A stretch of DNA of 64,000 nt from an uncultured bacterium (GTDB lineage: Bacteria; Bacillota_I; Bacilli_A; RFN20; CAG-826), in assembly GCA_949299335.1 (NCBI GenBank), contig CASGAD010000031.1, positions 1 through 64,000 of the forward strand. The letters run 5' to 3'. Made by a program: the position numbers and the translations under genes. The notes beneath the pieces are model-generated. The model had not been told where the DNA came from. It did not search any database and saw nothing but the letters and a program-made list of their open reading frames with translations. Positions within the stretch are counted from its first letter, which is position 1, and each line of letters opens with the position of its first letter. Below, piece after piece: positions 47,163 to 49,342 of the stretch.

Positions 47163-47810
47163 CTAATATTTTATATTTTCAATAACATTTAATAATTCTT
47201 GATAAGTCGAAACGATAGCAAATGGTTTAGTTTCATTGTCATATACTCTAGGAGCTCCTTTGAAAAGAATGCACTTGATATTAGCATTTTGTGCAGCTAA
47301 AAAATCATACTTAGTATCGCCTATCATAAGAGCTTCTTCTTTATTAATACCCAAGTTATTTATTATAAAATTAATCATTTCTGGATTTGGTTTAGTTTTA
47401 AAATGATCAGAACTAGTTAAGATATAAGAAAAATATTGATTTATATTATATTTTTCTAGTGTTTTAATTGCCATTTCGCGATTTTTGCTTGTCGCAATAG
47501 CAAAGATATATCCATCTTCTTTTAATTTTTTAAGAACTTCCAACTCTCCTGGAAATATATTCAAATATAAATCGTAATACTTTTTAGTTCTTTATCTATA
47601 TTCGTTTAAAATGAATTTTGGATCTTTTTCAGGGAAAGCTCGAGCTATCGACTCCTCAACGGGTGGCCCAGAAAATCCTCTTACAAACTCTCTATCAATT
47701 ACATAATCTTTGGGCTTGTATAAAAGAAATAATTCTTTCCATGTTTGAAATAGCACTTCATCAGTATCAATCAAAGTACCATCCATATCAAAAATTAAAA
47801 GTTTTACCAT
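47163..47810 (-). pseudogene. ppaX: ppaX-like HAD phosphatase broken by one in-frame TAA
   Basis: A PpaX/Gph-type HAD phosphatase of 215 residues if read through. The first part begins MVKLLIFDMDGTLIDTDE (motif I); the second has TSKNREMA (motif II) and MIGDTKYDFLAAQ (motif IV). A single TAA (47594-47592) interrupts the frame after residue 72: NEYR-stop-RTKKYY. There is no frameshift and the downstream part is intact. Lgt-ppaX is a conserved Firmicutes pair, and lgt overlaps this gene by seven bases. A GAA-to-TAA change, a sequencing error or suppression could explain it. Confidence 0.8.
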
Positions 47811-49342
47811 ATATTAAATAAAATGATTATTGCCAAAACAATCAATAATGCGATAGAAGCGACAATAATAATATCTCTTCTTAGTGTCTTTTCATCTCTA
47901 GTATCTTGTACAAGTACTTCATCTACAAAATTATAATTTTTAAATAGCCATAATTTCTTTTCTCTAAGATACTTTAAAATTGCAAAAACTAAAACAATGA
48001 ATAAGCCAGCTCCAATCATAAAATAGGAAGATGAAATACTTAAATCATATTGGAAAGTTCCACTTCTAAGTGGTTCCAAAAGTGCTCTAGTTGCTCCATA
48101 CCATACTAAATACCATCCAGCACCACTTCCTTCAGCATGATATTTTCCTAATCCTCTGCATATACCAAAATAAATAAAGAAGTAACCAATTAAATTTGTG
48201 ATTGTTTCTATTGTTGCTAAAGGAAGGTAAGCCATAGTGGTATTACTAATTTGAGTGGCGTAATTATATTGATAATTTGTCTTTATAAAAGTAGGAAGCC
48301 AAGCGATGCTATCAAGTGGGATTTGATTCCCGTGAACTTCACAATTAAAGAAATTTCCAATTCTTCCAATTGCTTGTGCTACTAAGATTGTAGGAATAAT
48401 AATGTCTGCTAGTCTTAAGTAACTTATTTTTTGATATACAGGGTCTTTTTTCCAATACTTTATAATTAGCATTACACTAACTCCAGCAATAATGCCTAAA
48501 ATTGCTCCACCCATAATGCCTAATCCGCCATCCCACACACTAAATATTTTTGTCCAATCTCTAACATATTGGGATGAGGCACCTTCTTTAGAAATGTCCA
48601 AAACAACATACCATAATCTTGCACCAACTAATCCAGAAGGAAAAGCGACAAAAAAGCAAGTTGTTACAATATCATGTTTTCCATAAATTTTATAAATGAA
48701 ATGATCACAAATCGCTAAAACTAAAAATGCTCCGCTTAGAATAAAAATAGCGTAAAAAGCAATTGAAATGCCACCATCTAGTGAATAACTTTCTCCACTA
48801 TAAGTGTAATATGGTTCTGGATGAACATAACTATTAATAAACTTAATTCCATGTTTACCGATATATATTGAATTACATAACGGATAACTTAAATAAGGAG
48901 CATTCCCTTCGGAAAATAAAATAAAAGTTACAACCATTAAAGGTATCGATGAATACATTATTATTTTAAATACTTTTCTTAATGAAGAATCTAATTCTGG
49001 CAAATAAAAATAATATAAAAAAGAAGTCAAAAAAGTGAAACAAAATACGCTAAATAAAATAATAAAAAAATATGAGAGAAATTGATGACCAGCATCAACT
49101 GTTAAATTATTATTTTCAACCAAACTTATCGTTGCAGGATCAAGATAAAAGGCCACAGTAAAAAGGACTAGTCCAATTAAAATACCAAAAAAACATATTC
49201 CAAGATAAACTAGACATTTTGTTATTAAAATGTTTCCTTGGAGACGAAGTTTATTTTTTACCATAAAATTAAAATATACTCCGTAACTAACTGCCCCTAT
49301 AACAAACAATGCCATTGCTAAATAATAAATAACTTCACTCAT
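47804..49342 (-). CDS. lgt: prolipoprotein diacylglyceryl transferase with N-terminal membrane extension
   Basis: Membrane enzyme that transfers diacylglyceryl from phosphatidylglycerol to the lipobox Cys of prolipoproteins. The Lgt core is in the C-terminal two thirds: VGARLWYV, the signature QAIGRIGNFFNCEVHG and the late YGATRALLEPLR. At 512 residues it is nearly twice the usual 260-290. About 160 extra N-terminal residues carry four hydrophobic segments not in typical Lgt. The usual HGG/YGG motif (E. coli His103) reads GIMGG. Start context is weak (GAAAGAGA). Function is inferred from the signature. Confidence 0.88.
   Translation of the reverse strand: MSEVIYYLAMALFVIGAVSYGVYFNFMVKNKLRLQGNILITKCLVYLGICFFGILIGLVLFTVAFYLDPATISLVENNNLTVDAGHQFLSYFFIILFSVFCFTFLTSFLYYFYLPELDSSLRKVFKIIMYSSIPLMVVTFILFSEGNAPYLSYPLCNSIYIGKHGIKFINSYVHPEPYYTYSGESYSLDGGISIAFYAIFILSGAFLVLAICDHFIYKIYGKHDIVTTCFFVAFPSGLVGARLWYVVLDISKEGASSQYVRDWTKIFSVWDGGLGIMGGAILGIIAGVSVMLIIKYWKKDPVYQKISYLRLADIIIPTILVAQAIGRIGNFFNCEVHGNQIPLDSIAWLPTFIKTNYQYNYATQISNTTMAYLPLATIETITNLIGYFFIYFGICRGLGKYHAEGSGAGWYLVWYGATRALLEPLRSGTFQYDLSISSSYFMIGAGLFIVLVFAILKYLREKKLWLFKNYNFVDEVLVQDTRDEKTLRRDIIIVASIALLIVLAIIILFNIW

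Follow-up and report, generated by a model that had tools for sequence, protein, structure and literature searches.

A single in-frame TAA codon interrupts a conserved PpaX-like HAD phosphatase gene next to lgt in the draft genome of an uncultured CAG-826 bacterium

A conserved gene for a HAD-family phosphatase is broken by one in-frame TAA codon in the DNA stretch analysed here, the first 64,000 nucleotides of contig CASGAD010000031.1 (assembly GCA_949299335.1; hereafter 'the window'). We consider a recent loss-of-function nonsense allele to be the best reading of this interruption, and a probable one. It rests on two inferences, namely that the organism's own DNA carries this TAA and that the gene has lost its function. 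An assembly artefact is the main competitor of this reading; translation through the stop or in two pieces appears far less likely.

Results

A 215-residue frame with one stop codon

The sequence-only reading of the window had pointed out a single TAA within a HAD-type frame that is open on both sides. Translation of the minus strand from 47810 to 47163 bears this out: it yields 72 codons, TAA as codon 73, 142 more sense codons and a TAG terminator, and the read-through frame thus has the 215 residues given in that reading. The features considered in this work are the following.

47163-47810, minus strand: PpaX-like HAD-IA hydrolase gene interrupted at codon 73 (Pfam HAD_2 match of the read-through frame and 23 stop-free genus orthologs)
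47592-47594, minus strand: in-frame TAA, codon 73 (translation; missing in 23 of 23 genus orthologs)
47595-47810, minus strand: N-terminal part, 72 codons, with motif I and the stretch behind it (HAD_2 E-value 6.1e-11 by itself)
47163-47591, minus strand: C-terminal part with motifs II-IV (HAD_2 E-value 1.7e-30 by itself for the ORF at 47163-47564)
47804-49342, minus strand: lgt, 512 amino acids, directly upstream of the HAD gene (Pfam LGT E-value 8.7e-37)

Behind the stop, the coding frame runs for 142 codons free of internal stops. The two alternative frames of this strand have 13 and 20 over the same length, so the openness of the coding frame is not a matter of chance. The four motif strings DMDGT, ATSKN, TKPNP and GDTKYD, starting at residues 8, 106, 139 and 164 of the read-through frame, are all present, in agreement with the earlier statement that all motifs persist. 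We take them to be motifs I to IV in the usual numbering of the family. Codon 73 falls between the first two, in a region where HAD-IA enzymes presumably have their cap. The first possible start codon (ATG, GTG or TTG) behind the stop is TTG at codon 83, which opens the ORF at 47163-47564, followed by TTG 90 and ATG 113. Besides the TAA, no second lesion was found over the whole 215-residue frame of the window's copy. A frameshift pair was considered and discarded, since the read-through aligns without any change of frame to 23 genus orthologs (22 over their whole length; the remaining one, L014, is truncated where its contig stops); the absence of a frameshift had been correctly noted from the sequence.

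A PpaX-like member of HAD subfamily IA

The read-through frame scores above the cut-offs of both family models, with 161 bits for Pfam HAD_2 (cut-off 23.8; E-value 4.1e-47, residues 5-182) and 56.1 for TIGR01549 (cut-off 23.3; best stretch 91-177). By score it belongs to HAD subfamily IA, and it differs from that subfamily by the break at codon 73: the four motifs are in frame, but the predicted product stops at residue 72 and does not hold them in one polypeptide. In a sequence search of solved structures, 89 distinct sequences matched at E<=0.001. The best of them, 2go7 (3.6e-17), is named just HAD-like hydrolase, and the nearest structures gave no more precise function than that.

The name 'ppaX-like' used in the sequence-only reading stands as a nearest-model label. 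The pyrophosphatase PpaX (NF009804) is indeed the top NCBIfam model for the read-through, over residues 2-212 with an E-value of 1.8e-37, but the 128.9 bits obtained miss its equivalog cut-off of 218 bits. All 23 genus orthologs match this model at E<=0.001, some of them entered only as the matched range; the nearest one scores 121.5 bits, and the best E-value among them is 3.5e-39. In Bacillus, HPr kinase is the partner of PpaX, and the gene order is hprK-lgt-ppaX. The window's gene resembles this arrangement by its best model and by its position next to lgt. It differs by its score and perhaps by HPr kinase, for which no match was found in the genome with PF07475 or TIGR00679. The latter is a soft negative, as only three of the 14 controls (Caulobacter, Bacteroides and Lactococcus) gave a signal and Bacillus subtilis remained silent. 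On these sequence comparisons, 'PpaX-like HAD-IA phosphatase' would be as far as the identity can be taken.

The Bacillus subtilis control was silent for both HPr kinase and LGT. This species is known to carry both genes. The control copy may not include the locus, or the first-look search may miss such genes.

An old neighbour of lgt, intact in the relatives

With a threshold of E<=1e-35, the gene was found in 24 of the 26 genus genomes including the window's own, and thus in 23 of the 25 others. The window's own genome has a single match at this threshold, and hence no second ortholog; it has five further HAD-like matches, one of them partial and weak (E-value 3.6e-4). None of the 23 genus orthologs, including the partial L014, has an internal stop, so that among these copies the disabling change is confined to that of the window. 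The nearest ortholog is 74% identical. The site of codon 73 is variable among the relatives, which have T, A, N, K, E, D or S at this position.

One genome that is 96% complete (G018) has no match at the threshold; its best match, at 1.4e-15, was taken for a paralog. As it also lacks an Lgt match, whereas G014 and G002 have one, the whole lgt-HAD block may have been lost from it or may fall in an assembly gap. We therefore dropped the argument that G018 shows the gene to be dispensable. A genome that is 52% complete (G008) was not used as evidence of dispensability either.

In the window, the last seven bases of lgt (47804-47810) are also the first seven of the HAD gene. All 23 genus loci, and all six loci examined from outside the genus, have a tblastn match to lgt immediately upstream of the HAD gene and in the same orientation. 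As for the ABC transporter gene downstream of the window's copy, it has matches within 1,500 bases in seven of the 23 genus loci, L014 having no downstream sequence. Judging from these comparisons, the HAD gene has long been adjacent to lgt, and among the copies seen the window's alone is interrupted.

The lgt product itself has a long N-terminal extension, the LGT domain occupying residues 188-451 of 512. In 22 of the 23 genus loci, the tblastn match starts within this extension, at residues 1-56; the remaining locus, L012, runs off the end of its contig.

Selection on the gene and age of the stop

The window's copy has kept all 27 columns that are invariant in the other 23 sequences. A further set of 46 columns shows at least 90% conservation, and of these it keeps 45, with 23 of 23 ahead of the stop and 22 of 23 behind it. 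Relative to the nearest ortholog, dN/dS is 0.12 before the stop and 0.17 behind it, with dS values of 1.0 and 1.4, respectively, that are near saturation. These ratios indicate that selection acted on the gene for most of the lineage. Behind the stop, 13 derived residues were assigned to the window's copy and six to the nearest ortholog, compared with one and three before it, and 30 differences could not be assigned. Neither a binomial test (p 0.17) nor Fisher's test (p 0.26) finds this excess significant. The comparison with the nearest ortholog thus gave no significant signal of relaxed selection behind the stop, as is expected if the lesion is very young.

We simulated neutral drift of the downstream part, assuming AT-biased substitution and an indel frequency that is 10% of the substitution frequency. 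The chance that it acquires no new stop, indel or loss at a conserved site is 30% at 0.01 substitutions per site, 9% at 0.02, 3% at 0.03 and below 1% at 0.04. If the gene is no longer under selection, the stop must then be very recent. From the alignment and this simulation, it would either be that recent, with less than about 0.03 substitutions per site of neutral drift since it arose compared with a dS above 1 to the nearest ortholog, or not be real. A wrong base, or a gene that is still functional, would leave the remainder just as intact; the simulation dates a lesion and proves none.

Discussion

The sequence-only reading had left three explanations side by side, a very young pseudogene, an error and a suppressed stop. 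The first two remain, with the first favoured, and suppression has found no support. According to the second, the organism has an intact gene, and the TAA came in with the assembly, either through a wrong consensus base or because strains were mixed and the base of a minority strain was fixed. We regard this as a serious but clearly less probable explanation. The genome is a draft in 37 contigs (98.29% complete, 0.36% contamination), the remainder of the gene is conserved where expected, and a screen of the window for adjacent ORFs, each 60 residues or longer, found no other gene split in the same manner. Besides the HAD pair, it returned two pairs in the same frame that are separated by a single stop, and both consist of separate genes, NusG/SecE and an FtsX permease/ABC ATPase. 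Against an artefact, the change is a clean substitution that leaves the frame unaltered, and the surrounding sequence, judged by eye, has no long homopolymer. Scans of genome contigs for other strains brought no relative among 29 stretches at the protein level and no hit with a DNA pattern, but near-identical records may be missing from them, and the protein scan says little as it also missed known genus orthologs.

The stop might also be tolerated, with a little full-length enzyme arising from misreading of UAA or with separately made halves that assemble, in which case the gene would be down-regulated rather than lost; we hold this to be very unlikely. Suppression at a useful rate, yielding some full-length phosphatase, is by itself improbable. 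It would fit the preservation of the downstream frame and of all invariant residues, and the variability of the codon 73 site means that many inserted residues could be accommodated. Passages of a study of E. coli (PMC11126739) report that readthrough is commoner than expected, with context-dependent hotspots, and that alanine, glutamine and tryptophan are the main residues inserted at TAA. The same source describes TAA as the most accurate stop in its reporters, for which a legend gives means of 0.01-0.05, expressed as a percentage of the wild-type signal. A suppressed stop would moreover be expected at the same site in the relatives, and it occurs in none of the 23 orthologs. No tRNA with a UUA anticodon is among the 42 tRNA genes found, all of which have sense anticodons, in a search that left nine of 159 first-look candidates unscored and does not cover near-cognate misreading. 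A mechanical list of the window's non-overlapping ORFs with 100 residues or more has 51 entries, of which 31 end in TAA, 13 in TAG and 7 in TGA. TAA thus ends most genes, as had been stated, and the wholesale recoding that the earlier reading excluded is indeed unlikely. A change of genetic code had also been considered because six HAD paralogs among the matches listed (L003 and L079-L083) seemed to have a stop inside. It was rejected, as these stops are the genes' own terminators, which the alignments reach or run past. The remaining possibility, two cistrons whose products of 72 and about 133 (from TTG 83) or 126 residues (from TTG 90) come together as a single functional HAD enzyme, is the least credible of all. 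TTG 83 lies ten codons past the stop and opens an ORF of 133 residues, but no ribosome-binding site is visible by eye before it; the ORF from TTG 90, of about 126 residues, is directly preceded by a ribosome-binding-like GGAGAG that by eye is too close. HAD_2 still matches each half separately. Both downstream pieces nevertheless lack motif I, the break lies inside the presumed cap, and such a split is found in none of the 23 orthologs. Neither readthrough nor a split enzyme has positive support.

We therefore return to the recent null allele. A recent nonsense substitution would have inactivated the HAD-family phosphatase gene behind lgt, of which the genome has no second ortholog. Translation would end after 72 residues, and this product, with the first catalytic motif and without motifs II-IV, should be inactive. 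Motif I would be missing from any product restarted at TTG 83, TTG 90 or ATG 113. HAD catalysis depends on an active site to which each of the four motifs contributes, so a break between motifs I and II would entail loss of function. The rest of the frame would be intact solely because the time for decay has been too short. The five other HAD-like matches make functional overlap possible, and these genes may blunt the effect of the loss. Recent single-nonsense pseudogenes or null alleles are an established kind in bacterial genomes, and the present case resembles them by its one substitution, its intact remainder and its uninterrupted orthologs; we saw no difference from them. Some points weigh against this reading. 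The same picture would result from an error in the sequence or from a mixture of strains, there is no second lesion to prove decay, the hint of faster change behind the stop is not significant, and the presence of the gene in 23 of 25 relatives argues against easy loss.

If the stop is real, the window would have captured gene loss at its first step in a genome of 1.4 million bases, a conserved phosphatase gene behind lgt being stopped by a single base while the rest of it has not begun to decay. The interruption is otherwise ordinary in kind and is mainly a caution for annotation.
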